In this document: piece by piece, positions 2-16,311 of the stretch
Numbering within the stretch: position 1 is the first letter of the stretch
How the letters are laid out: the number at the start of each line of letters is the position of its first letter
NCBI GenBank assembly: GCA_021776435.1
Contig: JAJFFW010000117.1
Span: 1-37,635 of the forward strand
Origin: Parvularculaceae bacterium
Lineage (GTDB): Bacteria > Pseudomonadota > Alphaproteobacteria > Caulobacterales > Parvularculaceae
Reading direction: 5' to 3'
DNA length: 37,635 nt
Translations under genes and position numbers: made by a program
Notes under the pieces: generated by a model
Databases searched by the model: none
Told to the model about the DNA's origin: nothing
What the model saw: only the letters and a program-made list of their open reading frames with translations

Positions 2-532
2 TGGTTATTGGAACCGATTCGGCAGCCGTCGTTTCAGATCGCGGTATTTGGTGCCGGGCACGTCGGCGCCGCCACCGTCGACTTGCTGGCAAAACTGGAT
101 TGCGAGGTTCGCTGGATTGATGGTCGGCGTAATGTGTTTCCCGAGCGACTGCCTGCGAATGTCACACCGATTGAATCGCCCGAACCCGCTCGCGAAGCGA
201 CCGCAAGGTCACCCAGCAGTTTCTTTCTCGTCATGACTCTCAGTCATCCACTCGATCTGGACATTTGTGTGCAGGTATTGCGACGCGACGATGCGGCGTA
301 TTGTGGTGTTATCGGTTCAGTTTCCAAGCGGCGGCGATTCGAACGCCTGTTGAAAAAGCAGGGCGTACCGGAGGCAGCCGTGCAGCGGCTCGTTTGCCCG
401 ATCGGCGTCTCGGGAATCAGTAGCAAGAAGCCAACCGAAATCGCTATTGGCGTTGTCGCCGAGTTGCTGCGGGCGCGAGAAGAATCCGCAGTCAGTTATG
501 CCAGTCAACCGTTTCTGAAGGTCAGCCAATAA
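2..532 (+). CDS. xdhC: XdhC, xanthine dehydrogenase accessory protein (5' truncated by window)
   Basis: The reading frame is open to the left edge, so only the C-terminal part of about 176 residues is present; the family is usually near 250-300 residues. What remains is the Rossmann-like XdhC domain, with the dinucleotide-type motif VFGAGHVG followed by an acidic strand end (WIDGR). It also has the family block CGVIGSVSKRRRF and a C-terminal CPIGVSGISSKKPTEIAI segment. XdhC proteins bind molybdenum cofactor and deliver its sulfurated form to xanthine dehydrogenase, so xdhA/xdhB probably lie just upstream. The TAA stop overlaps the puuD ATG (TAATG), suggesting translational coupling. A TTG at position 8 is in frame but is not a credible start, because it leaves out the N-terminal domain. 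Confidence 0.93.
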   Translation, partial: WLLEPIRQPSFQIAVFGAGHVGAATVDLLAKLDCEVRWIDGRRNVFPERLPANVTPIESPEPAREATARSPSSFFLVMTLSHPLDLDICVQVLRRDDAAYCGVIGSVSKRRRFERLLKKQGVPEAAVQRLVCPIGVSGISSKKPTEIAIGVVAELLRAREESAVSYASQPFLKVSQ

Positions 533-1734
533 TGGAAGCCTACATCGTCGAGTGGCTGAGCCTGTTCGCGCGCTGGATACACTTTATTACCGGCATCGCC
601 TGGATTGGATCGTCGTTCTATTTCATCTGGCTGGATAATCACCTGGAGGCGCCCAAGGTGCAGGCAGACGATGACAAAGGTGTTGGCGGCGAACTCTGGT
701 CCGTGCACGGCGGCGGTTTCTATCACGCGCAGAAGTACCGCGTCGCGCCCCGAAAACTTCCCGAGACCCTGCACTGGTTCAAATGGGAGGCTTACACGAC
801 GTGGCTCAGCGGCTTCGCGCTCATGATAATCGTGTATTATATTGGCGCCGATCTTTATCTAATCGACCGCGCCAAGATTGATCTGACACAATGGCAGGCA
901 ATTGCCATCGGACTGGGATCACTTGCAGGCGGCTGGCTGGTTTATGACTTTCTCTGCAAGTCACCGATCAGTAAAAATCAATCAGCGTTTGGAGTGATTT
1001 GGTTCGTCCTGTTGACTGTGAGCGCTTACCTGTTGACGCTTGTCTTTAGCGATAGGGGCGCTTTTCTTCATGTCGGCGCGCTCATTGGGACGGTGATGGC
1101 GGCGAATGTTTTCTTTGTCATCATTCCAAATCAGAGGAAAACCGTTGCAGCCATGATTGCTGGCGAGAAGCCAGATCCAACGCTTGGCGCCAAAGGCAAG
1201 CAACGTTCAGTTCATAATAACTATATGACTTTGCCGGTGTTGTTGATCATGATCAGCGGTCATTATCCAATGCTGGTTGGACATCGTTTAAACTGGCTTT
1301 TGCTCGCCGCCATCAGCGTTGCCGCATTGTTGACCCGTCATTATTTTAATTTACGAAACCAGGGGACGGAGCATAAGGCGTTACTGGCTGGCGCAGCGGC
1401 TGTGTTTGTGGCGACCATGGGGGCGGCGTCCATAAAACCCACACAAGCGCGCACTGACGATGAGGCGGTCAGCGAAATAAGCTTCTCTGATGTTCGCGAT
1501 ATTATCGATCGTCATTGTATTGCCTGCCATTCAGTGACCCCCTCGCATGATTTTTTTGATGCACCGCCAAAGGGCTTAACTTTTGACAGCGAGGCTGAGA
1601 TAAAGCGCGCCGCTGGCGTAGTGTACGACCAGACTGTTGCGACAAATATCATGCCGCTCGGAAATGAGACCGCAATGACCATCGAAGAACGCACACGGCT
1701 TGGAGCATGGATTAAACAGGAAGGTTTGCGATGA
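532..1734 (+). CDS. puuD: PuuD-type membrane urate oxidase with C-terminal cytochrome c
   Basis: This 400-residue protein matches the PuuD layout. An N-terminal polytopic domain (about residues 5-300, several hydrophobic segments, with family-like WIHFITGIAWIGSSFYFIW at the start) is followed by a short periplasmic cytochrome c domain with one CxxCH haem site (C329, C332, H333) and a distal Met in the IMPLGN segment. PuuD is known to oxidise urate to 5-hydroxyisourate and to pass electrons to the respiratory chain rather than making peroxide like soluble uricase. The gene lies between xdhC (makes the urate-producing enzyme active) and allA, with 1- and 4-base overlaps on its two sides, so it is almost certainly co-transcribed and coupled with both. 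The length is normal and no damage is visible. Confidence 0.93.
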   Translation: MEAYIVEWLSLFARWIHFITGIAWIGSSFYFIWLDNHLEAPKVQADDDKGVGGELWSVHGGGFYHAQKYRVAPRKLPETLHWFKWEAYTTWLSGFALMIIVYYIGADLYLIDRAKIDLTQWQAIAIGLGSLAGGWLVYDFLCKSPISKNQSAFGVIWFVLLTVSAYLLTLVFSDRGAFLHVGALIGTVMAANVFFVIIPNQRKTVAAMIAGEKPDPTLGAKGKQRSVHNNYMTLPVLLIMISGHYPMLVGHRLNWLLLAAISVAALLTRHYFNLRNQGTEHKALLAGAAAVFVATMGAASIKPTQARTDDEAVSEISFSDVRDIIDRHCIACHSVTPSHDFFDAPPKGLTFDSEAEIKRAAGVVYDQTVATNIMPLGNETAMTIEERTRLGAWIKQEGLR

Positions 1735-2249
1735 CCGAGATCCGCGATGACGCCAATGTTCTCGTTCCAAAGCCGCTGACGGTGGAAAAATTTGCACCGT
1801 TCGGTGATGTCATTGACGCTGAGGCCGCGACGCGTCGGTTGCCAATAAACCAGGGCTTTACGACGCGATTCGATGATCTGGCGGTCGTTGATGTGGAAGA
1901 TGAAAACGGGCGTGTTTGTGTCAGCATTTTTCGCTCCACGCCAATGGCGGCGCCGATCACCATCCGCCTTATGGAGCGCCACCCACTGGGCAGTCAGGCG
2001 TTCATACCTCTTGAAAGGCGGCCTTACTTGATCATCGTTGCGCCGCCGGGCCCGTTTGATGGCGCCAAGGTTCGCGCGTTCCTTGCGCAAGGCAGTCAGG
2101 GCGTCAATTACGCGAAAGGCGTTTGGCATCATTTTTTGCTGGCGCTGGAAGCCGAGAGTGATTTTCTGGTGATTGATCGCGCCGGCTCGGGCAATAACCT
2201 TGATGAGGTTACGTTTTCGGATGATGCATGTTTCAAAGTAGAGGTTTAG
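1731..2249 (+). CDS. allA: Ureidoglycolate lyase
   Basis: This 172-residue cytosolic protein has the features of the AllA family (PF04115): the central ERHPLGSQAFIPL strand-turn block, an LIIVAPPGPFD strand, and the GVWHHFLLAL motif with paired histidines expected in the cupin-like metal/substrate site. The family cleaves ureidoglycolate to glyoxylate and urea, the last step of allantoin breakdown. The start ATG overlaps the puuD stop as ATGA, a typical coupled junction. Hydroxyisourate hydrolase, OHCU decarboxylase, allantoinase and allantoicase are absent from the window, so the route from PuuD product to AllA substrate must be completed elsewhere, most likely just left of the window. Confidence 0.93.
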   Translation: MTEIRDDANVLVPKPLTVEKFAPFGDVIDAEAATRRLPINQGFTTRFDDLAVVDVEDENGRVCVSIFRSTPMAAPITIRLMERHPLGSQAFIPLERRPYLIIVAPPGPFDGAKVRAFLAQGSQGVNYAKGVWHHFLLALEAESDFLVIDRAGSGNNLDEVTFSDDACFKVEV

Positions 2250-2276
2250 ATCGGCCGGTGAACTGATGGAGTTTTG

Positions 2277-3602
2277 ATGACTGTCGCCGCTTATAGATCG
2301 CAGATATTACATGTCCGTGCAGACCCGCGTGTGGTCGGCGCCGATGAGGCCGTGCAGTATTTTGAAGATGGACTGCTCGTCGTTGAGGACGGGCATATTG
2401 CTCAATTAGGTTCGTTTAGCAAATTGGAGAAGACGCTTTCGAAAGATGTCAGTATAACGACATTTGAAAATACGCTAATCACGCCGGGCTTTATTGATAC
2501 GCACATTCATTTCCCCCAGACCGATATTATCGCTGCTTATGGGGAGCAGTTAATGGACTGGCTTCATTCTTATACGTTTCCCGCAGAGGCGGCTTTTGCT
2601 GATCCGGCTCACGCGAAAAGTTCCGCCAGGTTTTTCGTTGACGAGTTGTTGCGCAATGGAACGACGAGTGCAATGGTTTTTGCAACGGTCCACGCGACTT
2701 CCGTGGATGCATTATTCGACGTGGCGCTTGCAAAAAACATGCGCCTTATTTCTGGTAAAGTGTTGATGGACCGCAATGCGCCAAAAGAGCTGTGCGACGG
2801 GGCGGATCACGGCTATGAAGACAGCATAGCTCTCATCAAACGGTGGCGGGGAAAGGGACGTCTCAATTACGCCGTTACGCCGCGCTTTGCACCTTCGAGC
2901 TCACGCGAACAATTGGAGATGGCCAGCGCATTGATGCTTAGCGATCCTGAATTGCGTCTTCAAACGCATCTATCCGAGAACATAGCGGAAATAAAATTTA
3001 CTGGCGAATTATTTCCGGAAGCGAGAGATTATTTAGACGTATACGGTCGATATGGTCTCTTAACCGATCGCTCAGTGTTCGCGCACGGCCTGCATTTGAC
3101 AGATGATGCGTTTGAAAGAATTGCACAGGCTGGCGCCTCCATAGCGTTTTGTCCAACGTCTAACCTGTTTTTGGGAAGCGGGCTTTTTGACATCGGTCGT
3201 GCGGAAAAGGCAGGCGCTCATGTGGCGCTTGGCACCGATATTGGCGCCGGCACGACTTTCTCCATGCTGCAGACTTTGAGGGTGGCTTATAAGGTCGGAC
3301 AGCTCGGAGGGTATAGTCTCGACCCGTTTACGTCATTCTATCTGGCGACATTAGGCGGTGCGCAATCGCTTGGGCTTGCCGACAAAGTCGGGCATCTGAC
3401 ACCTGGCGTTGAGGCGGATTTTATTGTCATTGACCTTGCTGCAACGCCATTGATCGCGAGGCGAATGAACGCCACCAAGACACTCCTGGAAAAGCTGTTT
3501 GTTCTCACTGTGCTTGGCGATGATCGTGTTATTGCGCGCACTTATTTGGCTGGCGCACTCGCTCATGAACGCGATTCAGGGCGTAACGTAAATCTTGGTT
3601 GA
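2277..3602 (+). CDS. guaD: Guanine deaminase
   Basis: This 441-residue amidohydrolase converts guanine to xanthine and ammonia. Visible family signatures are the metal-binding PGFIDTHIHFPQTD block, the guanine deaminase block GEQLMDWLHSYTFP, QTHLSEN, FAHGLHL, and the metal aspartate in ALGTDIGAGTTFSML. I chose ATG 2277 over the in-frame TTG at 2274: GGAG at 2268-2271 sits 5 bases before the ATG but only 2 before the TTG. It follows allA after a short gap and is probably the last gene of the xdh-puuD-allA transcript. It feeds xanthine to the xanthine dehydrogenase that XdhC matures. The next gene is on the opposite strand and converges on it. Confidence 0.95.
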   Translation: MTVAAYRSQILHVRADPRVVGADEAVQYFEDGLLVVEDGHIAQLGSFSKLEKTLSKDVSITTFENTLITPGFIDTHIHFPQTDIIAAYGEQLMDWLHSYTFPAEAAFADPAHAKSSARFFVDELLRNGTTSAMVFATVHATSVDALFDVALAKNMRLISGKVLMDRNAPKELCDGADHGYEDSIALIKRWRGKGRLNYAVTPRFAPSSSREQLEMASALMLSDPELRLQTHLSENIAEIKFTGELFPEARDYLDVYGRYGLLTDRSVFAHGLHLTDDAFERIAQAGASIAFCPTSNLFLGSGLFDIGRAEKAGAHVALGTDIGAGTTFSMLQTLRVAYKVGQLGGYSLDPFTSFYLATLGGAQSLGLADKVGHLTPGVEADFIVIDLAATPLIARRMNATKTLLEKLFVLTVLGDDRVIARTYLAGALAHERDSGRNVNLG

Positions 3603-3682: not shown

Positions 3683-4528
3683 TCATGCCGTTGACCGGTT
3701 GTCTATAATAGGCGATCCGTTCATCAGAATGGGGAGATTATTTTCAGGATCATCAAGCATTTGTTTGCTCCCGTCCTTTTTTACCTGATAAGCGCCACTG
3801 GCGATGAATTGAACGATGTAGGCTTTGCGCGTGTCCTTGGTGAGATTCGGTCCCGTCATATGGGGCGTTAGGGATGAAAACACCACCACATCGCCAACAT
3901 CGACTGCGGCGCAAACGGCGGTTGCCTCGACCATGTCTTTGTTGATGCCTCGGATATGCAGCCCGTTCTCTGTATGCTCATGGGCATATGTTCCCTCACG
4001 ATGCATATTAGGCATGACCCAGGGGCAACCATTGTCTTTTGTGGTTTTGAGGAGTGGTAGCCAGCAAGTGAGATAATCCTGGGGCAGCGTGAAAGTGTAT
4101 CCATTATCTTGATGCCATGCGAACTCGGATGTCTGTCCAGGCTTTTTATAAACGCCCTGGTCCCAATAGAGACGCACGTCATCGCCGATCAGATCGTGAA
4201 CGAGCCCTTGAAATACCGGCCCGGTAATCAGGGAACGTAATATTTTCGATTGAGACGCCAGACCGCAGGCAAACGAAAGCTTTTGTACATCGAAGACCAG
4301 ATCGGACTGATCGTCCATGGTCAAGACGGTGTCAGTTTCTTGCGCTTCAAAAGCATCAATGACGGCTCGAACGTCTGCGATTTTTTGGGCGTCGAAGAGA
4401 TTTCGCAAAATAACAAAGCCATGACGGTTGTATTGGGAGATCTGATCCGATGTCAGAAGCCTCGGCTGTTCCGGCCAGTAGTTTCGCCAGACGAAGCCGT
4501 GGTTGAGTGGGTGAGGCTTTAGAGACAT
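3683..4528 (-). CDS. Phytanoyl-CoA dioxygenase (PhyH) family Fe(II)/2-oxoglutarate oxygenase
   Basis: The protein has 281 residues and a PhyH-type double-stranded beta-helix core. The iron ligands are visible as HQD (H139, D141) in the segment AWHQDNGYTF and a distal H223 in SLTPHMTGPN. R234 in DTRKAY is the likely 2-oxoglutarate carboxylate anchor. Further family blocks are TCWLPLLKTTKDNG and VVVFSSL. I chose ATG 4528 because GGAAAC lies 6-7 bases upstream; an upstream in-frame start at 4573 would add 15 non-conserved residues. The substrate cannot be read from sequence: PhyH enzymes act on acyl-CoAs, ectoine, amino acids and other small molecules. It sits between guaD and a purine deaminase and is divergently transcribed from the latter, so a purine- or nucleoside-linked substrate is possible but unproven. 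Confidence 0.85.
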   Translation of the reverse strand: MSLKPHPLNHGFVWRNYWPEQPRLLTSDQISQYNRHGFVILRNLFDAQKIADVRAVIDAFEAQETDTVLTMDDQSDLVFDVQKLSFACGLASQSKILRSLITGPVFQGLVHDLIGDDVRLYWDQGVYKKPGQTSEFAWHQDNGYTFTLPQDYLTCWLPLLKTTKDNGCPWVMPNMHREGTYAHEHTENGLHIRGINKDMVEATAVCAAVDVGDVVVFSSLTPHMTGPNLTKDTRKAYIVQFIASGAYQVKKDGSKQMLDDPENNLPILMNGSPIIDNRSTA

Positions 4529-4664
4529 GGCCGTTTCCAAAATTAAATTTTCTATAGCCATCGAGGGGCGCACCCTCCATTATCACAAATTCTGCGCTGT
4601 AGAAATTGTTCAACTTGTCTCGCCAAATCGTATTGCGGTTGGTGTTAAGCTTAGGATTACAACG

Positions 4665-5666
4665 ATGCCTGAAGTGGGAAATTCGTCCCAGCCGTTATTG
4701 CCTTTGGCGGAATTGCATTGCCATTTAGAGGCGACTGTAGAACCCGCTGACGCTCTTCGGCTTGCCAAGCGTCATGGCGTTGATATTTCGCCGGTTCTCA
4801 ATGGGGCCGGAGGATATCAATGGAATTCGTTTCATGAATTTCTCACCGTTTATGATGCTGTCAGCGAGGTGATCCGCACGGCGGAGGATTACTTTGAAAT
4901 CACCTATTCCTATTTCACGCGCATGGCGGCAAAGGGAATGATTTACGGAGAGGTGTTCGTTTCTCCGGCCCATGCGGGGCGATTTGGTGTGCCTTATCCG
5001 GCGCTTGTTGATGCCGTTGCTTCAGCGATGGAGGCGGCGGAAAATGACGCTGGCGTTGTCGGGCGGATCATCGTGACAGGCGTTCGCCATTACGGCGCTG
5101 AGCATGTTGTCGAAGTTGCGCAATCTCTATCAGATCATCCGCATCCATATGTTACAGGCTTTGGTTTGGCAGGCGATGAAGCTTCTGGCCAAAACGTTGA
5201 TTTTGCGAAGGCCTTCGCTATTGCGCGTGATGCGGGTATGGGCCTTACGACCCATGCAGGAGAAATTCTCGGTCCAGAGAGTATCCGTAGTGCGCTTGAA
5301 CATCTCGGCGTTTCACGTCTGGGACATGGAGTGCGAGCCATAGAAGATGAAGGGTTGTTGATGGAGCTTGCTGTGCGCGGCGTCGTTCTGGAAGTCTGCC
5401 CCACGTCGAATATCGCTATTGGTCTTTACGATTCGATCGCAGATCATCCTGTCGGCGTGCTAGTCGAAAAGGGTCAAACGGTCACTTTGAGTTCTGACGA
5501 TCCGGCATTTTTCGGGGTCGATCTTGCTGATGAATACCGGTTTGTCGCCGAGGCGCACGGATATGATGATGCAGCGCTTTGCGGCTTTACGAAAAATGCC
5601 ATTGAGGCCGCCTTTTGCGATTCGCAAACCCGGGAGCGGCTTCGCTCCAAGGTAGAAAAAACTTAG
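4665..5666 (+). CDS. Adenosine/adenine deaminase family protein
   Basis: This 333-residue protein is a member of the metal-dependent adenosine deaminase family. The zinc motif HCH (H18, H20) is in AELHCHLEA. THAGE (H197, E200), SRLGHGVRA, CPTSNIAIG and SSDDPAFFG (D278, D279) follow in the usual order. The reaction is deamination of adenosine (or adenine) to inosine (or hypoxanthine). The SSDDPAFFG stretch resembles bacterial adenine deaminases of this family as much as true adenosine deaminases, and HLEA replaces the common HLEG, so I leave the substrate open. The start is ATG 4665, with AGGA at 4653-4656 eight bases upstream; the in-frame ATG at 4527 would add 46 residues that do not look like family sequence. 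It is divergent from the PhyH gene over a 136-base shared upstream region. Confidence 0.88.
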   Translation: MPEVGNSSQPLLPLAELHCHLEATVEPADALRLAKRHGVDISPVLNGAGGYQWNSFHEFLTVYDAVSEVIRTAEDYFEITYSYFTRMAAKGMIYGEVFVSPAHAGRFGVPYPALVDAVASAMEAAENDAGVVGRIIVTGVRHYGAEHVVEVAQSLSDHPHPYVTGFGLAGDEASGQNVDFAKAFAIARDAGMGLTTHAGEILGPESIRSALEHLGVSRLGHGVRAIEDEGLLMELAVRGVVLEVCPTSNIAIGLYDSIADHPVGVLVEKGQTVTLSSDDPAFFGVDLADEYRFVAEAHGYDDAALCGFTKNAIEAAFCDSQTRERLRSKVEKT

Positions 5667-5786: not shown

Positions 5787-5885
5787 AAAATTTATCATCT
5801 AATAAAAAGACTGCCGGGCGAAACACGCTATGCGGTCTCTAACATCGGAAGCGCCACGCCTGATAACTCATTGGAGGGAAAAACC

Positions 5886-8177
5886 ATGCAAGGGTTCGGT
5901 TCAATTTTGGATAAAAAGCAATTGCTTAAGGGGGCAAGCGCTGTCGTTCTCGCCGCTTTTATCGCGACGCCGGGTGTCGCATTTGCTCAAGATAGCGGCC
6001 TCGACACAATCGTCGTTACGGCTCAGAAGCGCGAAGAGAACCAGCAAGAAGTCCCGATTTCTATCGAAACAGTCTCAGCGGAACGTCTTTCGAATATTCT
6101 GGCTGCGGGTGAGGACATTCTGGCCTTGGCCGCTCGCGTTCCCAGCCTGTATGCGGAATCTTCAAATGGCCGTTTGGCGCCGCGTTTTTATATGCGCGGC
6201 CTTGGTAATGTCGATTTCGACGTTGCCGCCTCACAGCCAGTCTCGATCATCATCGATGACATTGTCATGGAAAACGTGCTTTTGAAAAGTACGCCTTTGT
6301 TTGACGTCGCACAGGTCGAAGTCGCACGTGGCCCGCAAGGCACATTGTTTGGTCGCAACACGCCGGCTGGTGTCGTTAAGTTCGATACGCGCAAGCCAAC
6401 AGATGAATTCGACGCTTTCGGTCAGTTCGCCTATGGCAGTCACGATACGATTACTGCGCAGGCTGGCGTCGGTGGGCCGATCATTAAAGATATCCTGTCG
6501 GTCCGATTCTCTGGCCTTTACCAATATCGCGACGATTACGTCGATAACGCTTTTACAGGCGTTAATGATGCGCTCGGCGGGTATGAGGAATTTGCCGGTC
6601 GTGTACAGCTTCTCTTCACACCGACTGACCAGCTTAGCATTCTGCTGAATGTCCATGGCCGCGATAATGAAGGCACTTCAGCGCTTTTCCGCGCCAACAT
6701 TCTAGAGCAGGGTACGGGAAAACTTGTTAAGGCGAATTTCGATCGCGATACGGTCTTCTTTGATGGTGGGCAGAACAATCCACAAGAAGCTGAAGGTTTG
6801 GGCGGTTCTGCGAAAGTTGATTGGGATTTTGGCGCCGTGACGCTAACCTCAATTACCTCAATTGAAGACGCAGAAAGCTCCAGTCGTGGTGACATTGACG
6901 GTGGCTTTAGCGACGTCACAACTTTCTTCCTTCCCACGAATCCGCCTTCTCCGCCGTTTACGCCTGGCACCAGTCGGTTCCCGTCTGAAACGCAAGACTC
7001 AGTCGATGATCTCGATCAGTTCACTCAAGAAGTCCGTCTCGCCTCCAATGGCGACAATGTTCTCGATTGGCAGGTTGGTTTCTATTATTTCGACTCCGAC
7101 GTCAGGGTTTCGACAATCGGTGTTGGCTTCCCGCCGCTGACGACGCTGCGCCACGAAAATGATAGCTGGGCGATCTTTGGGCAGGCCAGCTATGACCTGA
7201 CCGACCGGCTTACACTGACTTCGGGCGTACGCTATACCGAGGACGATCGCGATTTCAGCGCCATTCTTCTGCCGCCAGGCGTCACGGTGAACCCGACCCA
7301 CGCCGATGATGAAGATTTCAGCTGGGACGTCAGCGCGCTTTATCGCGTTCAGGATGGTTTTAATGTTTACGGCCGCGTCGCGCGCGGCTTCCGTGGGCCG
7401 ACCATTCAGGGACGCGATGTCGCTTTCGCGGCGTTCTCGGGCGCCGTCGATCCACAGACTGTCGCAAAGTCAGAGACAATCCTCTCCTTTGAAGGCGGCT
7501 TTAAATCCGAGTTCATGGATAACCGCGCACGCCTGAACGTGACGGGCTATTACTACGAAGTTGATGATCAGCAATTCTCGATCATTGGCGGCTCGAGCAA
7601 TTCCAATCAGGTGGTCAATGCTGACGAAGGTGTTGGCTGGGGTTTTGAAGTCGACGCAGAAGCGTTGCTCACCGACAATTTTTATGTTTCGTTGGGCTTC
7701 AGCTATAACAACACGGAAATCAACGACGATGATCTGGCGACCGCGACTTGTGGTTCGGGGCTGTGCACAAGCCTTGATCCGCGAAACAACATTATCGATC
7801 CGGTGACTGGTCTTGGTCAGGCGCTGGTTGATGGCAACCCATTCCCCAACGCGCCGGAGATCACATTTAATGCGTTCGCGGAATACACGATGCCATTCCG
7901 TAGTCATGGCGAGTTCTTCGTCAACACAGATTGGGCGGTTCAGGGAGATACAAACTTCCTGCTTTATGAATCTGCTGAATTCCAGTCGAGTGGTAATTTC
8001 GAGGGTGGGTTGCGCGCAGGCTATCGTGCAGATAGCGGTCGTTATGAAGCCGCATTTTTCTCCCGTAACATCACTGACGAAGAAAATGTCAAGGGCGGCA
8101 TCGACTTCGACAACCTGACCGGCTTTGTGAACGAGCCGCGCGTGTTTGGCTTCCAGCTCACCGTTCGCTCCAACTAA
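5886..8177 (+). CDS. TonB-dependent outer-membrane receptor
   Basis: The protein has 763 residues. A signal peptide (about residues 1-34, cut predicted after GVAFA) is followed by a TonB-box-like DTIVVTAQKRE at 40-50. The plug domain has the typical RFYMRGLGNVDF and EVARGPQGTLFGRNTPAGVV blocks, and a 22-strand-type barrel rich in aromatic/Gly strands ends in FGFQLTVRSN. ATG 5886 is the start: GGAGGG at 5873-5878 is 7 bases upstream; a TTG at 5871 lies on the ribosome-binding site itself. The family moves scarce ligands across the outer membrane using TonB energy. Its ligand is unknown, but it lies between a purine deaminase and purine nucleoside phosphorylase and ends in a strong terminator. 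This suggests a nucleoside, nucleobase or purine-containing substrate. No Fur-like site was seen upstream, which argues mildly against a siderophore role. Confidence 0.95.
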   Translation: MQGFGSILDKKQLLKGASAVVLAAFIATPGVAFAQDSGLDTIVVTAQKREENQQEVPISIETVSAERLSNILAAGEDILALAARVPSLYAESSNGRLAPRFYMRGLGNVDFDVAASQPVSIIIDDIVMENVLLKSTPLFDVAQVEVARGPQGTLFGRNTPAGVVKFDTRKPTDEFDAFGQFAYGSHDTITAQAGVGGPIIKDILSVRFSGLYQYRDDYVDNAFTGVNDALGGYEEFAGRVQLLFTPTDQLSILLNVHGRDNEGTSALFRANILEQGTGKLVKANFDRDTVFFDGGQNNPQEAEGLGGSAKVDWDFGAVTLTSITSIEDAESSSRGDIDGGFSDVTTFFLPTNPPSPPFTPGTSRFPSETQDSVDDLDQFTQEVRLASNGDNVLDWQVGFYYFDSDVRVSTIGVGFPPLTTLRHENDSWAIFGQASYDLTDRLTLTSGVRYTEDDRDFSAILLPPGVTVNPTHADDEDFSWDVSALYRVQDGFNVYGRVARGFRGPTIQGRDVAFAAFSGAVDPQTVAKSETILSFEGGFKSEFMDNRARLNVTGYYYEVDDQQFSIIGGSSNSNQVVNADEGVGWGFEVDAEALLTDNFYVSLGFSYNNTEINDDDLATATCGSGLCTSLDPRNNIIDPVTGLGQALVDGNPFPNAPEITFNAFAEYTMPFRSHGEFFVNTDWAVQGDTNFLLYESAEFQSSGNFEGGLRAGYRADSGRYEAAFFSRNITDEENVKGGIDFDNLTGFVNEPRVFGFQLTVRSN

Positions 8178-8234: not shown

Positions 8235-8290
8235 ATTTGGTGACTTTGTGCTTCATTGCGGGCCAAAGCGGAAGAGGAAAGGAACCCATT

Positions 8291-9109
8291 ATGGACGAGG
8301 CCGTTGCATCCGCCGTTGCGAGCATCCGCAAGGTCCACGGTTCAGCGTTTCCCGAAACCGTTCTTATTTTGGGCAGTGGCCTCGGTCGGTTTGGCGAGCA
8401 TGTGAAGGCTGAAACGATCCTTCCCTATGATACTATTGAGGGCTTTCCGGTCTCGACGGTCGCCGGTCATCAGGGCCGGCTGTTGATCGGCGAGGCCGGC
8501 GGCGCGCCGCTCGCCTGCATGCAGGGCCGTCTGCACGTTTACGAAGGCCACCCGATTCAGGAAATTGCCGTACCTATCCGGACGTTTCGTGCGCTTGGCG
8601 TCAAGCGCTTGATCGTCACAAATGCGGCGGGGAGCTTGCGCAAAAACATGGGGCCGGGTTCGCTGATGGTCATCGAAGACCACATCAATTTATCAGGGTG
8701 CAATCCGCTGATCGGCCCGAATGACGACGAAACGGGGCCGCGCTTTCCCGATATGAGCACAGTGTATGATGTTGAGTTACGCACCCGTCTACGGGCGGCA
8801 GGAGAAGCCGAAGATGTGAAACTCGATGCGGGGGTTTATCTTTATACGACCGGCCCGAGTTTTGAGACGCCCGCTGAAATTCGCATGTTTGCGAAGCTCG
8901 GTGCTGACGCTGTGGGAATGTCCACCGTTCCGGAAGCAATTGTTGCGGTCCATTGCGGCATGCGCGTGGTCGGGCTCTCGCTGATCACCAACCATGCCGC
9001 CGGTATTGCCGTGCACCCGATTACCCATACGGAAACCCTTGAGGAAGGTGAGAAGGCTTATGAAAAGATGAGCCGGTTGATGTTGCGTTTTCTCACGACA
9101 CTTGCGTGA
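8291..9109 (+). CDS. Purine nucleoside phosphorylase (trimeric type)
   Basis: This 272-residue cytosolic enzyme of the PNP/MTAP family cleaves purine nucleosides with phosphate to the base and (deoxy)ribose 1-phosphate. Visible family blocks are the phosphate-binding LILGSGLG, GHQGRLLIG with the following MQGRLHVYEGH, VTNAAGSLRKNMGPGSLMVIEDHINL, the GPSFETPAEIRM substrate loop, GADAVGMSTVPEAIVA and SLITNHAAGI. The Asn in ITNHA fits inosine/guanosine-type rather than adenosine-preferring enzymes by family knowledge. I chose ATG 8291 because AAAGGAA lies about 6 bases upstream. The gene is separated from the receptor by a terminator but shares direction and theme; it supplies hypoxanthine and guanine to the upstream catabolic enzymes. 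It converges on the next gene. Confidence 0.93.
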   Translation: MDEAVASAVASIRKVHGSAFPETVLILGSGLGRFGEHVKAETILPYDTIEGFPVSTVAGHQGRLLIGEAGGAPLACMQGRLHVYEGHPIQEIAVPIRTFRALGVKRLIVTNAAGSLRKNMGPGSLMVIEDHINLSGCNPLIGPNDDETGPRFPDMSTVYDVELRTRLRAAGEAEDVKLDAGVYLYTTGPSFETPAEIRMFAKLGADAVGMSTVPEAIVAVHCGMRVVGLSLITNHAAGIAVHPITHTETLEEGEKAYEKMSRLMLRFLTTLA

Positions 9110-10394: not shown

Positions 10395-10625
10395 TCAAAC
10401 CGTATCCGAGAGAGTCTCGGCGGCGGATATCACCAGTGGATTCACCCCTTCGATGCTTTCCTTTAAAGTCGCCAATAAGTCGCGACGCATCCGCGGGGCC
10501 CAGAACATGCGAAGATGGTTGGCGACGCCTTTGACGGCCTCTTCCTCGCCATAGGGTTCAAAATACTGTGCGATCTGATTGGCCATTCGGATGAGGTCGA
10601 CACGTTCCAAGTTATTTTCCTTCAT
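10395..10625 (-). CDS. fdsD: NAD-dependent formate dehydrogenase delta subunit FdsD
   Basis: This 76-residue protein has the FdsD family core DLIRMANQIAQYFEPYG, EEEAVKGVANHLRMFW and PRMRRDLL. The small subunit is required for an active, stable FdsGBA complex; its exact role is less clear than that of the catalytic subunits. It is the last gene of the operon. The start is not settled. ATG 10625 overlaps the fdhD end by 14 bases; a TTG at 10610, one base after the fdhD stop, has AAGGA seven bases before it and would give a 71-residue protein. A longer N-terminal extension up to 10742 is in frame but lies wholly over fdhD and is unlikely. Confidence 0.85.
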   Translation of the reverse strand: MKENNLERVDLIRMANQIAQYFEPYGEEEAVKGVANHLRMFWAPRMRRDLLATLKESIEGVNPLVISAAETLSDTV

Positions 10626-11427
10626 CAAAATTGACGATGCATCCATTCGGTCCCCGGCAACGTATCGCCAGACCCGCAGCGCTGGCGAGGTCGAGGGCGC
10701 GTCCTGTCGGCGCCGATATTGTCGCCAGGAGCGGCGCCCCAAAAGCAGCTGCTTTTTGCACCAGTTCCATGCTGCAACGACTGGTCATAACGATAAAGCC
10801 ATCTTCGGGTTTTTCTTCGTTGGCGATGAGGGCGCCGATCAATTTGTCGAGTGCATTGTGGCGTCCAATATCTTCTCGCACCAAACTGATCTCGCCAGCG
10901 AGATGGCACCAGGCAGCCGCATGAACGGTGCAGGTGACTGTGTTTAGAGGTTGAAAAGTCTTGAGTGCATTAAAGGCGTGAATGATCGTGTCATCATTGA
11001 TTTGTGCCGGTAGGATGGGTCGTGCGGGCGTCTTGACGGTATCGGCGAGGCTCTCGACTCCGCAAAGTCCACATCCCGTTCGACCCTCGAGCGCTCGGAA
11101 TTTGTGGACGCGCTCCGTCAACGCATCAGGGGGGATCGTGATATCCACCGTCCAGCCCTCAGGATGAGCGCGCACGTCCATCTCTTCGATCTTGTCCACA
11201 TCCGAGACGACGCCCTCAGTGAAAGCGAGCCCACGTGCGAAGTCTTCAAAATCCATTGGAGTCGCGAGCATCACTACCCAGGGTCTGCCGTTAAACCCGA
11301 TTTCAACAGGTTCTTCCTCAGCGATCCCCCAATCAGAAAACTCGCGCGATCCGGCGCTGACGTCGCCGGAAACGGATCGCCGTCGCCAGCCTGGTAATGA
11401 GGAGAGATCGCGATTTTCGGCTGTCAT
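10612..11427 (-). CDS. fdhD: FdhD / FdsC formate dehydrogenase accessory sulfurtransferase
   Basis: The protein has 271 residues. The FdhD family hallmark CGLC (C119, C122) lies in GRTGCGLCGVES, followed by TCTVHAAAW, VREDIGRHNALDKLIG, SRCSMELVQKAA and the ISAPTGRALDLA block. FdhD/FdsC passes sulfur from a cysteine desulfurase to bis-MGD and hands the sulfurated cofactor to the formate dehydrogenase catalytic subunit. The start overlaps the fdsA stop as ATGA, and the order G-B-A-C-D is the classical fds operon order, so co-expression with the enzyme is clear. The domain is complete; the N-terminal 30 residues are variable as in other members. Confidence 0.94.
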   Translation of the reverse strand: MTAENRDLSSLPGWRRRSVSGDVSAGSREFSDWGIAEEEPVEIGFNGRPWVVMLATPMDFEDFARGLAFTEGVVSDVDKIEEMDVRAHPEGWTVDITIPPDALTERVHKFRALEGRTGCGLCGVESLADTVKTPARPILPAQINDDTIIHAFNALKTFQPLNTVTCTVHAAAWCHLAGEISLVREDIGRHNALDKLIGALIANEEKPEDGFIVMTSRCSMELVQKAAAFGAPLLATISAPTGRALDLASAAGLAIRCRGPNGCIVNFDEGK

Positions 11428-14261
11428 TCGGCGGGTTCACTGATAATGGTCATGGCCGGGCGGCGCTCTATGCGCTGAGCCTGCCACTCTGCGGGATGGT
11501 TGCTGAGCGTGACCTGGACGGCGGTGACTTTGTATTCCGGGCAATTGGTCGCCCAATCCGAAAGTTCCGTGGTCACCACATTTGCGCCAGTCGTCGCATG
11601 ATGAAATGTCGTGTAGACAACGCCTGGCGGCACTCGATCCGTAATTTCTGCACGCAAAGTGACCTGTCCCTTACGGCTCGTAAGCGATACCAGCGCACCG
11701 TCAGTGACACCGCGCAGTTCAGCATCAACCGGATGGATTTCAAGAAGGTCTTCACCGTGCCAGCGGATGTTTTCCGTGCGCCTGGTCTGGGTCCCGACAT
11801 TGTATTGCGAAAGAATGCGGCCGGTTGTCAGGATAAGCGGGAAGTACCGGTTGGCTCTCTCTTCTGTCGGTATGTACTGGGTGATCATGAATTGACCTTT
11901 GCCACGGACGAAGCCGTCCACATGCATTATTGGCGTGCCTTCGGGCGCAGTCTCGTTGCATGGCCACTGCACGCTTCGGGCTTGGTCAAGGTAGTCGAAG
12001 CTGACGCCCGAAAATGTCGGTGTCAGTCTTGCTATTTCATCCATGATTTCCGCTGCGCTGTTATAATGCATGGGATAGCCCATTGCTGTGGCGAGGCGGC
12101 TGGCGACTTCCCATTCCTGAAGCTCGCATTTCGGTTTCATGACAGGGCGGACGCGATTGATGCGGCGTTCTGCATTTATAAACGTTCCGTCTTTTTCAAG
12201 AAACGACGTCCCCGGAAGGAATATATGGGCGAAGGCCGCAGTTTCGTTCAAAAATAGATCTTGAACAACGACGCATTCCATGGCTTCAAGGGCCGCCATC
12301 ACATGTTTGAGGTCCGGGTCGGACTGGGCGATGTCTTCTCCCTGTACGAAGATGCCCTTGAATGAACCGTCGAGCGCTGCTGCAAACATATTGGGAATGC
12401 GCAATCCCGGCTCAGAATCGATCTTCACGCCCCAGTCGCCCTCGAATAAATCGCGCACGCCTGCATCTGAAACATGCCGATACCCGGGCAGCTCATGCGG
12501 GAACGATCCCATGTCGCACGAGCCTTGAACATTGTTTTGACCCCGTAGCGGGTTCACCCCGACGCCGACCCGGCCAACATTACCGGTGACCATTGCCAGA
12601 TTAGCCATGCCCATCACCATGGAGGATCCCTGACTATGCTCAGTAACGCCGAGGCCATAATAGATCGCGGCCGTGTCAGCATTTGCATAGAGGCGCGCGG
12701 CGGCCCGAATCTCGCTGGCTGGAACGCTGGTCTTGTTTTCAAGCGCTTCAGGTGAATTTGATGGATCGGAGATAAACGTTTTCCAACGCTCAAAAGAGTC
12801 TTCATCGCAACGCTCCGCCACATAACTCGAGTCAGCCAGGCCCTCGGTCACCACGACATGGGCGAGTGCGTTGACGACCGCGACGTTTGTGCCCGGCTTC
12901 AATTGCAAATGATGCGTGGCGCGTACATGCGGGGTTTCGACCAGATCGATCCGGCGTGGGTCGACGACAATCAGTTTTGCCCCTTCGCGCAGGCGCCGTT
13001 TCATGCGAGAGGCGAAAACCGGGTGCGCATCGGTGGGATTTGAGCCAATCAGCAACATGACATCAGCGTGATCGACTGATTTAAAATCTTGAGTGCCAGC
13101 GGATGTTCCAAAGGTTTGCTTCAGGCCGTATCCGGTCGGCGAGTGGCAAACGCGTGCGCAGGTATCGACATTGTTATTAGCGAACGCGGTGCGCACAAGT
13201 TTCTGCACGAGGAAGACTTCTTCATTCGTGCAGCGTGAAGAGGTTATGCCGCCTAAGGCGCCGCGACCGTATTTTTCTTGTATTATTTTAAACCGCGCCG
13301 CCGTGTGGGTGATCGCTTCGTCCCAGCTCACTTCCTTCCATGGGTCTGTTATTTGCTCACGGATCATCGGGTTCGTGATGCGATCCTTATGGGTGGCGTA
13401 TCCAAAAGCAAATCGCCCTTTGACGCAGGAATGTCCTTCATTGGCGCCGCCGTCTTTGTGGGGAACCATGCGCACAACGTCTTCGCCTTGGAGCTCGGCT
13501 TTGAAAGAACAGCCAACACCGCAATAAGCGCAGGTTGTGATAACGCTGCGGGTCGGCATGCCGTGTTCAACGACTGAGCGTTCCATGAGCGTTGCGGTCG
13601 GGCAGGCCTGCACGCACGCGCCGCAAGAAACGCATTCGGAATCCATAAAGGCTTCGCCAGCGCTGGCGGCGACTTTGGAATTGAATCCCCGCCCTTCGAT
13701 CGTCAGAGCGAATGTGCCTTGTATCTCATCACAGGCGCGTACGCAGCGCGAGCAGACAATGCACTTCGACGGATCAAAATCGAAATACGGATTGCTCAGG
13801 TCTTTTTCCTGGCTGAGATGGTTTTCGCCCGTAAACCCGTATCTCACATCGCGAAGTCCAACTTCGCCGGCCGTGTCTTGCAACTCGCAATCACCATTGG
13901 CGGCGCAGGTCAGACAGTCGAGAGGATGATCGGAGATGTATAATTCCATTACGCCGCGACGAAGGCGTTCCAGCCGTGCACTTTGGGTACGGACTTTCAT
14001 GCCGTCCCCAACAGGGGTCGTGCAAGATGATGGCGTTCCTTTGGCGCCGTCGATTTCAACAAGGCACATGCGGCATGATCCGAAAGCGTCTAGGGAATCT
14101 GTTGCGCACAGTTTGGGAATATCAACGCCGCATTCGCTGGCGGCGCGCATAACTGATGTTCCCGAGGGAACGGTGACCGATATGCCGTTGATCTCAAGCT
14201 GCACTTTGTGTTCAGCTTTGCTCTCCGGCGTGCCATAATCATGTTCTTTGATGAGAGGCAT
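11424..14261 (-). CDS. fdsA: NAD-dependent formate dehydrogenase alpha subunit FdsA (Mo/bis-MGD)
   Basis: This 945-residue catalytic subunit oxidises formate to CO2 in the cytosol. Domains in order: an N-terminal 2Fe-2S ferredoxin domain (C52, C63, C66, C80); a NuoG-like His-Cys cluster (H112, C116, C119, C125); two ferredoxin-type 4Fe-4S sites (C167/170/173/177 and C210/213/216/220); the 4Fe-4S site of the molybdopterin domain (C244, C247, C251, C279); then the bis-MGD oxidoreductase domain. The active-site metal ligand is C372 in CARVCHSPTG, so this is the cysteine and not the selenocysteine form. The C-terminal MGD-binding fold includes LTTGRILSQYNVGTQTRR. All expected cluster ligands are present. 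It lies between fdsB (12-base gap) and fdhD (ATGA overlap). Confidence 0.96.
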   Translation of the reverse strand: MPLIKEHDYGTPESKAEHKVQLEINGISVTVPSGTSVMRAASECGVDIPKLCATDSLDAFGSCRMCLVEIDGAKGTPSSCTTPVGDGMKVRTQSARLERLRRGVMELYISDHPLDCLTCAANGDCELQDTAGEVGLRDVRYGFTGENHLSQEKDLSNPYFDFDPSKCIVCSRCVRACDEIQGTFALTIEGRGFNSKVAASAGEAFMDSECVSCGACVQACPTATLMERSVVEHGMPTRSVITTCAYCGVGCSFKAELQGEDVVRMVPHKDGGANEGHSCVKGRFAFGYATHKDRITNPMIREQITDPWKEVSWDEAITHTAARFKIIQEKYGRGALGGITSSRCTNEEVFLVQKLVRTAFANNNVDTCARVCHSPTGYGLKQTFGTSAGTQDFKSVDHADVMLLIGSNPTDAHPVFASRMKRRLREGAKLIVVDPRRIDLVETPHVRATHHLQLKPGTNVAVVNALAHVVVTEGLADSSYVAERCDEDSFERWKTFISDPSNSPEALENKTSVPASEIRAAARLYANADTAAIYYGLGVTEHSQGSSMVMGMANLAMVTGNVGRVGVGVNPLRGQNNVQGSCDMGSFPHELPGYRHVSDAGVRDLFEGDWGVKIDSEPGLRIPNMFAAALDGSFKGIFVQGEDIAQSDPDLKHVMAALEAMECVVVQDLFLNETAAFAHIFLPGTSFLEKDGTFINAERRINRVRPVMKPKCELQEWEVASRLATAMGYPMHYNSAAEIMDEIARLTPTFSGVSFDYLDQARSVQWPCNETAPEGTPIMHVDGFVRGKGQFMITQYIPTEERANRYFPLILTTGRILSQYNVGTQTRRTENIRWHGEDLLEIHPVDAELRGVTDGALVSLTSRKGQVTLRAEITDRVPPGVVYTTFHHATTGANVVTTELSDWATNCPEYKVTAVQVTLSNHPAEWQAQRIERRPAMTIISEPAE

Positions 14262-14273
14262 GGCGTGCGTCCT

Positions 14274-15839
14274 CTATGGGGTTGCGCGCTTGCGCGCGTC
14301 AGGAATATCGAAATCTTCCGGAAATTTTTCTAACGCGCTTAAAACGGGCATCGGGGTTAGTCCGCCCATTGCGCAAAGTGAGCCGTCGGTCATGATCTCG
14401 CAGAGGTCTGTAAGGAGTGCGACATTCGCAGCGATGTTCTCGCCGTTGCGGATCTTGCTGATGGTTTCCGCCCCGCGCACGGCGCCGATCCGGCAGGGCG
14501 TGCATTTTCCGCATGATTCTTCGGCGCAAAACGTCATGGAGAATTCAGCCTGGCGCGCCATGTCAACACTATCGTCGAACACCACGACGCCGCCATGGCC
14601 GAGCATCGCGCCGGCGTCAACAAAGGCTTCGTAATCCATCGGCAGGTCGAGCTCGTCGGCAGTGAGGTAAGCGCCTAAAGGGCCGCCAACTTGGACAGCG
14701 CGCAAAGGCCGACCGGTGAAAGAGCCACCGCCAAATTCTTCGATCAACTCCCGTAAAGTGACGCCAAAGGCTTTTTCAACCAGTCCGCCGCGCTTAATAT
14801 TGCCGGCGAGTTGGAAAGGCTGCGTCCCGCGCGAGCGACCCATGCCGTAATTGCGATAGGCCGTTGCCCCTTCGGCGAGGATGAATGGAACAGCAGCCAA
14901 TGTCAGGACATTATTGACAATCGTCGGCTTTCCGAAGAGGCCTTTAATTGCCGGGATTGGCGGCTTTACACGGACTTCACCGCGTTTGCCTTCAAGGCTC
15001 TCAAGCATCGAAGTCTCTTCACCGCAGATATATGCGCCAGCGCCGCGACGCAGCTCGATACTAAACGCGCGGCCGGAATCCGCTATATTCTCGCCGAGAA
15101 GCCCAACGTCTTCAAAGGCGGTTATGGCATTCGTCATGATGCGGAGGGCGGCGGGATATTCGGACCGAAGATATATCAACCCATGCTCAGCGCCTGTGGC
15201 GAAGCCGGCAATGATCATGCCTTCGATCAGCGCAAATGGGTCGCCTTCCATGATCATCCGGTCGGCGAAAGTGCCGCTGTCGCCCTCGTCGGCATTGGCG
15301 CAGATGAACTTTTGATCGGAGGATTGCGCAAGCGCCGTTTTCCATTTGATCCCGGCCGGGAACCCTGCGCCGCCGCGACCGCGAAGGCCCGATTCGATCA
15401 TCTCTTCGACGATTGCTTCAGAAGTCATCGTGGCGGCTTTTTCCAACCCTTTGAGACCGCCATGACGGCGATAGGCGTCAAGGTCGAGCGGGTCGATAAT
15501 ACCGCAACGTGCAAAAGTCAGACGTTCCTGCCTTGCGAAAAATGGATGCTCGTCAACGATGCCGATACAGAGCGCGTTCTCACCGCCCTCGTAAAACCGG
15601 GATTCGAAAAGCGCGGCGACATTTGCCGTCGTGACCGGGCCATAACCAAGGCGCTTGCCATTCGCTTCGATTTCCACGAGTGGTTCCAGCCAATAGGCGC
15701 CGCGCGATCCGGTGCGGATGATCTTTACGTCAATGCCGGCACTGCGCGCATTTTGTACGATAACTTCGGCCACTTCGTTGGCGCCGACCGAACACGCCGC
15801 TGAATCCTGAGGAATATAGATAATGTACGGATCAGCCAT
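14274..15839 (-). CDS. fdsB: NAD-dependent formate dehydrogenase beta subunit FdsB (NuoF-like, FMN/NAD)
   Basis: This 521-residue protein has a thioredoxin-like N-terminal part (about 1-120) followed by a NuoF-type flavoprotein domain. GLRGRGGAGFP (about 151-161) and NADEGDSGTF bind FMN/NAD, and GAGAYICGEETSMLESLEG is the second nucleotide motif. Near the C-terminus, CAEESCGKCTPCRIG plus a later Cys hold a 4Fe-4S cluster. In the FdsABG complex this subunit takes electrons from FdsA and reduces NAD+. It overlaps the end of fdsG by 8 bases and is followed closely by fdsA. Length and motifs are complete. Confidence 0.95.
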   Translation of the reverse strand: MADPYIIYIPQDSAACSVGANEVAEVIVQNARSAGIDVKIIRTGSRGAYWLEPLVEIEANGKRLGYGPVTTANVAALFESRFYEGGENALCIGIVDEHPFFARQERLTFARCGIIDPLDLDAYRRHGGLKGLEKAATMTSEAIVEEMIESGLRGRGGAGFPAGIKWKTALAQSSDQKFICANADEGDSGTFADRMIMEGDPFALIEGMIIAGFATGAEHGLIYLRSEYPAALRIMTNAITAFEDVGLLGENIADSGRAFSIELRRGAGAYICGEETSMLESLEGKRGEVRVKPPIPAIKGLFGKPTIVNNVLTLAAVPFILAEGATAYRNYGMGRSRGTQPFQLAGNIKRGGLVEKAFGVTLRELIEEFGGGSFTGRPLRAVQVGGPLGAYLTADELDLPMDYEAFVDAGAMLGHGGVVVFDDSVDMARQAEFSMTFCAEESCGKCTPCRIGAVRGAETISKIRNGENIAANVALLTDLCEIMTDGSLCAMGGLTPMPVLSALEKFPEDFDIPDARKRATP

Positions 15840-16311
15840 TGGCCCCGTTCAACTTTCTTGTTGCCGTCTTGTTCAATGCGTCAGAAATGTTTTCTTTGTT
15901 GGCGCGGCCAATGAGTTGACCGCTAACCATCGCTGCGGGACCGAGCGCACAATTGCCTAGGCAATAAACAGTCTCGATTACAGATTTGACGCCATCGCTT
16001 TCTGGGGGACTTATCTCCAGCGCTTCCGCCAGAGTGTCGCAACCCATCGCCTGGCAGGCTTCACCGCGGCAAAGTTTGACGATTGGGCCATCGGGGGGCG
16101 CATCGCGGAAATCATGATAAAAAGAGGCGACGCCATGCACATCTGCTCTGGATAAATTCAATTCCTCAGCGAGGACTGGGATCGTCTCACGGGGAATAAA
16201 ACCAGCTTCTTCCTGAATATCATGAAGGATCTCGATCAGCGCATCCGGCCGGCTCGCCTGCGCCCGGCAAAGCGCTCTGGTTCTCTCAGTGAGGTCGGAT
16301 TCAGCGTTCAT
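15832..16311 (-). CDS. fdsG: NAD-dependent formate dehydrogenase gamma subunit FdsG (NuoE-like)
   Basis: This 159-residue protein is the first gene of the fds operon. It is a NuoE-type thioredoxin-like 2Fe-2S protein: a helical N-terminus with ILHDIQEEAGFIP and the VHGVASFYHDF block, then cluster ligands C81 and C86 (LCRGEACQAMG) and C117 and C121 (YCLGNCALGPA). It accompanies FdsB as the electron-transfer subunit. ATG 16311 has no obvious ribosome-binding site upstream. The 260-base gap before it contains a palindromic repeat element, and the promoter must be within or near that gap; I could not pick out a convincing -10/-35 pair. Confidence 0.93.
   Translation of the reverse strand: MNAESDLTERTRALCRAQASRPDALIEILHDIQEEAGFIPRETIPVLAEELNLSRADVHGVASFYHDFRDAPPDGPIVKLCRGEACQAMGCDTLAEALEISPPESDGVKSVIETVYCLGNCALGPAAMVSGQLIGRANKENISDALNKTATRKLNGANG

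Follow-up and report, generated by a model that had tools for sequence, protein, structure and literature searches.

We analysed a stretch of 37,635 nt from a Parvularculaceae bacterium (contig JAJFFW010000117.1 of assembly GCA_021776435.1), referred to here as the window. Near its beginning a gene for a PhyH-family Fe(II)/2-oxoglutarate (2OG) oxygenase is located within a cluster of purine catabolism genes:

8-532 (+), xdhC, xanthine dehydrogenase accessory protein, truncated by the contig end
532-1734 (+), puuD, membrane urate oxidase (Urate_ox_N, 443 bits)
1731-2249 (+), allA, ureidoglycolate lyase (family-profile scan)
2274-3602 (+), guaD, guanine deaminase (NF006679, 634.9 bits, cut-off 351)
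3683-4528 (-), PhyH-family Fe(II)/2OG oxygenase, probably 281 aa (Pfam and alignment of homologues)
4529-4664, divergent region between PhyH and add, 136 bases
4665-5666 (+), add, adenosine deaminase family (TIGR01430, 299.5 bits, cut-off 216.55)
5871-8177 (+), TonB-dependent outer-membrane receptor (family-profile scan)
8237-9109 (+), purine nucleoside phosphorylase (PNP), inosine/guanosine type (TIGR01700, 313 bits, cut-off 293.35)
10612-16311 (-), fdhD and formate dehydrogenase subunits (labels by eye)

The PhyH gene and the purine operon run on opposite strands; PhyH is convergent with guaD at a distance of 80 bases and divergent from add, whose likely start at 4665 leaves a gap of 136 bases. 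This confirms the position between guaD and a purine deaminase, with a divergence of 136 bases, that the original prediction had given; its span of 3683-4664 takes in the intergenic gap at its end.

The PhyH protein and its purine neighbours

The open reading frame of the PhyH gene (3683-4573, minus strand, 296 codons) opens at a GTG at 4573. Because homologues align from an internal ATG at 4528, with most close relatives beginning at or near that residue, this is the likely start. The protein matches the PhyH profile PF05721 over its whole length (99.3 bits, cut-off 22; E 4.7e-28; profile positions 1-213 of 213), which is the sole Pfam match at E<=0.001; TauD is absent. All 23 subfamily members in the alignment have H139, D141, H223 and R234, in agreement with the complete Fe(II)/2OG oxygenase predicted earlier from these residues, whose numbers are those of the 281-aa protein. 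In line with the family, the first three would be the iron ligands and R234 the 2OG ligand. A further 47 columns of the same alignment are invariant, among them R119, Y121, D123, Q124, F136, Q140, N142-G143-Y144, G167-C168-P169-W170, S218-S219-L220, P222 and T225-G226-P227-N228. The best NCBIfam model, NF052437 (methylphosphonate hydroxylase), scored 60.2 bits against an equivalog cut-off of 500, and the ectoine hydroxylase equivalog TIGR02408 scored 27.8 bits against 336.5. Besides the window gene the genome (2.96 Mb, 142 contigs) contains no second PhyH match. An AlphaFold model built from three sequences reached a pLDDT of 33.8 and was unusable, the helices at the cavity mouth included.

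Regarding the neighbouring genes, add scored 390.7 bits with its best subtype model, NF006848, under the cut-off of 426, and its nearest solved chain is 3ou8, labelled adenosine deaminase (160.8 bits). PuuD is extended at its C-terminus and carries there a haem motif of the CxxCH type (HCIACHS), as expected of a cytochrome-linked membrane urate oxidase. Another contig of the same genome (C118, locus L111, 3197-10447) carries a second purine cluster with puuE, HIUase, xdhA, xdhB, xdhC and puuD; this puuD is truncated by the contig end and 49-51% identical to that of the window. The tetranucleotide profile of L111 is slightly nearer to the family relatives G021 and G044 than to the window, and the cluster may represent a further operon of the genome or an error of binning.

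Extent, placements and history of the subfamily

The subfamily comprises 31 sequences, with homologues at 38-51% identity, which fall into clade A (n=18, with the window) and group B (n=13). In a scan of 398 genomes of the order, 143 match at E<=0.001 and only 14, the own genome included, at E<=1e-62; the next match listed has an E of 1.7e-22, so the subfamily is sharply bounded. It was found in 1 of 62 genomes of the own family (E<=1e-62), in 7 of 385 of the class (E<=1e-40) and in 2 of 398 of the phylum sample, the own genome being counted in the latter two; the samples overlap. Family f5 contributed 15 of 137 genomes, all from one genus, and the small family of genome G597 2 of 5 (E<=1e-25). 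The genome_contigs scan added two Myxococcota MAGs at 42-43% identity; a 31-residue match from the same scan was dropped. No relative was present among 25 pattern matches in viral_contigs, and no member was found on plasmids at E<=1e-20.

In the tree of the 31 sequences clade A and group B are split at 100/100. When outgroups were included, clade A (10 sequences at that stage) stayed together at 90/90 and the remainder lacked resolution, with some long-branched outgroups landing among the sequences outside clade A; for this reason we speak of group B and not of a clade. Five residues in the loop near residue 195 are present in the 10 clade A sequences of the 23-sequence alignment and missing from the 13 of group B.

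The arrangement guaD>PhyH<add was found in three of the 18 clade A genomes: in the window and in two genomes of one genus from another order of the class (locus L064 in G597, L071 in G778). The PhyH proteins in this slot are 46% identical between the two orders. In L064, which also carries xdhA-xdhB-xdhC, add is followed by a TonB-dependent receptor 48% identical to that of the window, and this is the only syntenic contig to reach the receptor position, the L071 contig ending inside add. Among 20 labelled loci, relatives of the window receptor occur only in L064, beside PhyH. In G021 and G044, which belong to the own family and have the guaD closest to that of the window, guaD, add and PNP are contiguous, and this stretch contains neither a PhyH gene of the subfamily nor a relative of the window receptor. 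The remaining clade A genes (15 of 18) lie outside purine clusters.

Two other placements are both limited to one genus of f5. In five of five genomes PhyH overlaps by a few bases the end of cysQ, the gene for 3'(2'),5'-bisphosphate nucleotidase, and all four products scanned pass the CysQ equivalog cut-off. In ten genomes of the same genus PhyH is located behind trmFO and shares its strand; the two genes adjoin in nine, and in L138 one open reading frame lies between them. Here trmFO is split over three frames in L053, the L141 contig ends inside it, and the one product scanned passes the cut-off. The f5 genus also has a protein of membrane type, about 203-213 aa long (L051 15727-16338, L139 12127-12768, L140 8242-8853), with a partial match to the Urate_ox_N profile that exceeds its cut-off; NCBIfam gave no match for the L051 copy. 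Its gene adjoins secF and is convergent with PhyH in L053, L056 and L140. The genes lying from PhyH to secF in L051 (10936-15692) and L055 (10623-15391) include, by eye, those for a TonB-dependent receptor, a BKACE-like enzyme and a class III aminotransferase.

Clustered homologues of the window xdhC, puuD, allA, guaD or add were found at no group B locus (n=13), in stretches several of which are short (8 kb in L063). Labelled by eye, with L056 read except for its end and L057 except for its start, the group B neighbours are genes for F420 cofactor, sulfatase, TetR, P450, glycosidase and carotenoid oxygenase, among others, and no nucleoside context was recognised. The original prediction had named homologues in unrelated loci as evidence against itself, and by this measure the 15 clade A genes outside purine clusters count against it, as do the 13 group B loci in the stretches examined. 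In L067 (6336-10264) and L069 (1771-5617) the group B gene lies near the F420-like genes npdG, cofE and cofD (by eye) and a formate dehydrogenase.

The scan of the window gap (4529-4664) gave no sigma-70-like promoter, and the divergent gaps of the three syntenic loci contain no common 10-base word; one 9-base word is common to the window and L064 and one to L064 and L071. Two terminator-like matches against 1.3 expected are near chance, both being located within the PhyH coding sequence, and Rfam at gathering scores yielded nothing in five loci scanned.

The three PhyH genes in the purine slot do not form one clade (constraint rejected in the 31-sequence tree, p-AU 0.0089). The window gene joins those placed behind trmFO at 100/95; the forks among the f95 genes (L064, L071), the cysQ-placed genes and the group of the window show no resolution. 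Given this branching, the guaD>PhyH<add slot would most simply be ancestral to clade A, with the gene moved twice, a history that needs 2 changes, the minimum for the three placements; alternatively the gene arrived in the slot on two occasions, with gap and orientation the same both times. Either history argues for a functional tie between PhyH and the purine genes. The guaD tree joins the window gene with those of G021 and G044 (100/99), so that the window operon looks vertical within the family, and the f95 guaD genes are sister to these at 86/91. Unlike the guaD tree, the PhyH tree places the f5 genes next to the window; as the two are not fully congruent, loss or transfer must also have occurred.

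All 10 clade A genomes searched, a set without the eight found later, have a full PuuD (Urate_ox_N, E below 1e-120), as do 4 of 11 in group B, without the two Myxococcota MAGs. Across the order PuuD is found in 47 of 398 genomes and 9 of 59 genera, and clade A accounts for 8 of the 47. In the seven f5 genomes of clade A that were inspected, the xdh-puuD-guaD cluster is elsewhere, with no add or PhyH in the fetched stretch. The link with PuuD is supporting and not decisive, as it comes from three or four independent lineages only.

Known PhyH demethylases and solved relatives

A paper of December 2025 (PMC12709175) describes PhyH enzymes that demethylate free 2'-O-methyl nucleosides. According to its accessible text, the active enzymes are the bacterial FJS, human PHYHD1 and PhyH-like proteins of Sphingomonas, Poribacteria, Acidisoma, plants, a fungus and a giant virus. 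FJS and PHYHD1 convert 2'-O-methyl-adenosine, -guanosine and -inosine to adenosine, guanosine and inosine, with formaldehyde shown as a product for FJS; mono- and triphosphates and the RNA tested were not accepted. The enzymes tested there also include inactive ones, human PHYH among them, and one that was active on 2'-O-methylguanosine alone (its Fig. 2 legend). The same text calls the breakdown of 2'-O-methylated nucleosides largely unexplored. FJS originates from a metagenomic screen (insert of about 1200 bp with an 858-bp open reading frame); the one mention of a gene cluster in the accessible text concerns a nucleoside hydrolase and an aldolase, and no FJS neighbourhood is described there. 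Compared by this description, the window protein resembles FJS as a PhyH-like Fe/2OG oxygenase of similar length (281 aa) with a tyrosine at the base-stacking place, as reported for bacterial demethylases, and products like those of FJS would suit the neighbouring genes.

Of 40 solved sequences ranked by the subfamily profile, EvdO2 scored best (79.9 bits), followed by SnoK (72.3) and PHYHD1 (70.7), with human PHYH (66.6) behind them, and in sequence there is no special closeness of the window protein to PHYHD1. EvdO2 (4XAB), an enzyme of orthosomycin antibiotic biosynthesis, is also the best solved match with the single sequence (67.5 bits), in an alignment that spans about half of the chain; no antibiotic genes were recognised by eye near the window PhyH gene. 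PHYHD1 (3OBZ, 2OPW) has the NGCxW..PGxH stretch in common with the subfamily consensus. Of the nucleoside contacts docked for PHYHD1 (K102, H105, Q139 and W277; S154; F161, which is Tyr in bacterial demethylases; PMC12709175, accessible text), Q139 and S154 are replaced in the window protein by W122 and A137, and K102, H105 and W277 lie outside the alignment used. Tyr144 (H+5) occupies the place of Phe161, where EvdO2 and human PHYH also have Tyr.

Proposed function and alternatives

We propose, at a probability of about 0.5, that the window PhyH protein is a 2'-O-methyl nucleoside demethylase feeding purine catabolism, a reading drawn from its family, from products that match the substrates of its neighbours, and from the gene neighbours themselves. 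With Fe(II), 2OG and O2 the enzyme would hydroxylate the methyl carbon of a 2'-O-methyl nucleoside, and the unstable product would break into the plain nucleoside and formaldehyde. Adenosine would then pass to Add, inosine and guanosine to PNP, and guanine to GuaD, followed by xanthine dehydrogenase, PuuD and AllA to yield glyoxylate and urea; these downstream steps are textbook purine catabolism. The formaldehyde may end as CO2 via the formate dehydrogenase encoded at 10612-16311. Of 22 loci, only the window, L067 and L069 have such a gene within 10 kb of PhyH, and two of these three are from one genus; as a one-carbon sink thought of after the fact it is only suggestive and carries little weight.

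The reaction is known for other PhyH enzymes (PMC12709175, as far as its accessible text goes), and for clade A we infer it. The basis within our analysis is the family, the catalytic residues, the gene order, the conserved slot and the link with genomes that have the urate pathway. The reaction fits the cluster: its purine products are what the enzymes encoded by add and PNP act on, genes that use them stand on both sides of PhyH, and the overlapping nucleotidase gene cysQ elsewhere in clade A fits a salvage of RNA. Counting against a demethylase are the 15 of 18 clade A genes outside purine clusters, the restriction of the cysQ and trmFO placements to one genus, the group B loci with their lack of a recognised nucleoside context, the opposite strand, the replacement of the PHYHD1 contacts Q139 and S154, the profile ranking, in which PHYHD1 follows EvdO2 and SnoK, the H+5 Tyr of EvdO2 and human PHYH, the inactive family members of PMC12709175 and the small number of lineages behind the PuuD link. 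Taken as a whole the original prediction is partly supported: the idea that a modified purine or nucleoside is oxidised gains from the slot conserved in another order, from the cysQ and trmFO contexts and from the precedent in PMC12709175, as far as its text is accessible, while XanA-like oxidation of a free purine base is unsupported here.

Among the literature matches listed, a set judged by titles and abstract openings and with few subscription papers, PMC12709175 is the only one to connect PhyH enzymes in bacteria to the breakdown of nucleosides or purines, or to CysQ. Nothing was found pairing PhyH with guanine deaminase or CysQ, and the only match pairing it with adenosine deaminase is unrelated by its abstract opening. 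The window gene is therefore probably a further case of a reaction already described, in a new pathway context. 2'-O-methylated nucleosides derive from RNA of all domains of life. If our proposal is true, their demethylation gains a pathway and candidate partners in Add, PNP, the TonB-dependent receptor and CysQ, its physiology becomes testable, and a PhyH subfamily without function is given one. Tentatively, clade A might even be an ancient and dedicated component of purine nucleoside catabolism in bacteria, a demethylase with its own receptor for the uptake and use of ribose-methylated RNA fragments or, more boldly, an enzyme whose substrate is a modified purine nucleoside for which no degrading enzyme is known.

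A nucleoside context does not reveal the position that is oxidised, and the same gene-context evidence applies if PhyH acts on another modified purine nucleoside or base, be it an N-methyl purine, a cytokinin-like adenine or a deoxynucleoside hydroxylated at C2'. The adenosine-deaminase-type family of add includes enzymes for N6-substituted purines, and a 2OG-dependent nucleoside 2'-hydroxylase from Neurospora is mentioned in PMC12709175. We consider this reading doubtful: no PhyH enzyme with such an activity is among the literature matches listed, and the nucleic-acid N-demethylases named in the introduction of PMC12709175 are AlkB-type. It is unlikely, too, that the gene is a passenger for an unrelated small molecule, present in the purine cluster by chance. 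All 13 group B members are found elsewhere, for example near the F420, sulfatase, P450, glycosidase and carotenoid oxygenase genes, the window gene runs opposite to the operon, and PhyH is missing from the clusters of the two family relatives; however, slot and orientation are kept across two orders at 46% protein identity, and in one of the other placements PhyH overlaps a nucleotidase gene in all five genomes. A xanthine hydroxylase replacing xanthine dehydrogenase, like fungal XanA (the xanthine/2OG dioxygenase, likewise an Fe/2OG enzyme of purine catabolism), would account for a 2OG oxygenase inside a purine cluster but is highly improbable, since XanA is TauD-type, the window protein has no TauD match, XdhC is encoded in the same cluster and the syntenic L064 carries xdhA-xdhB-xdhC.
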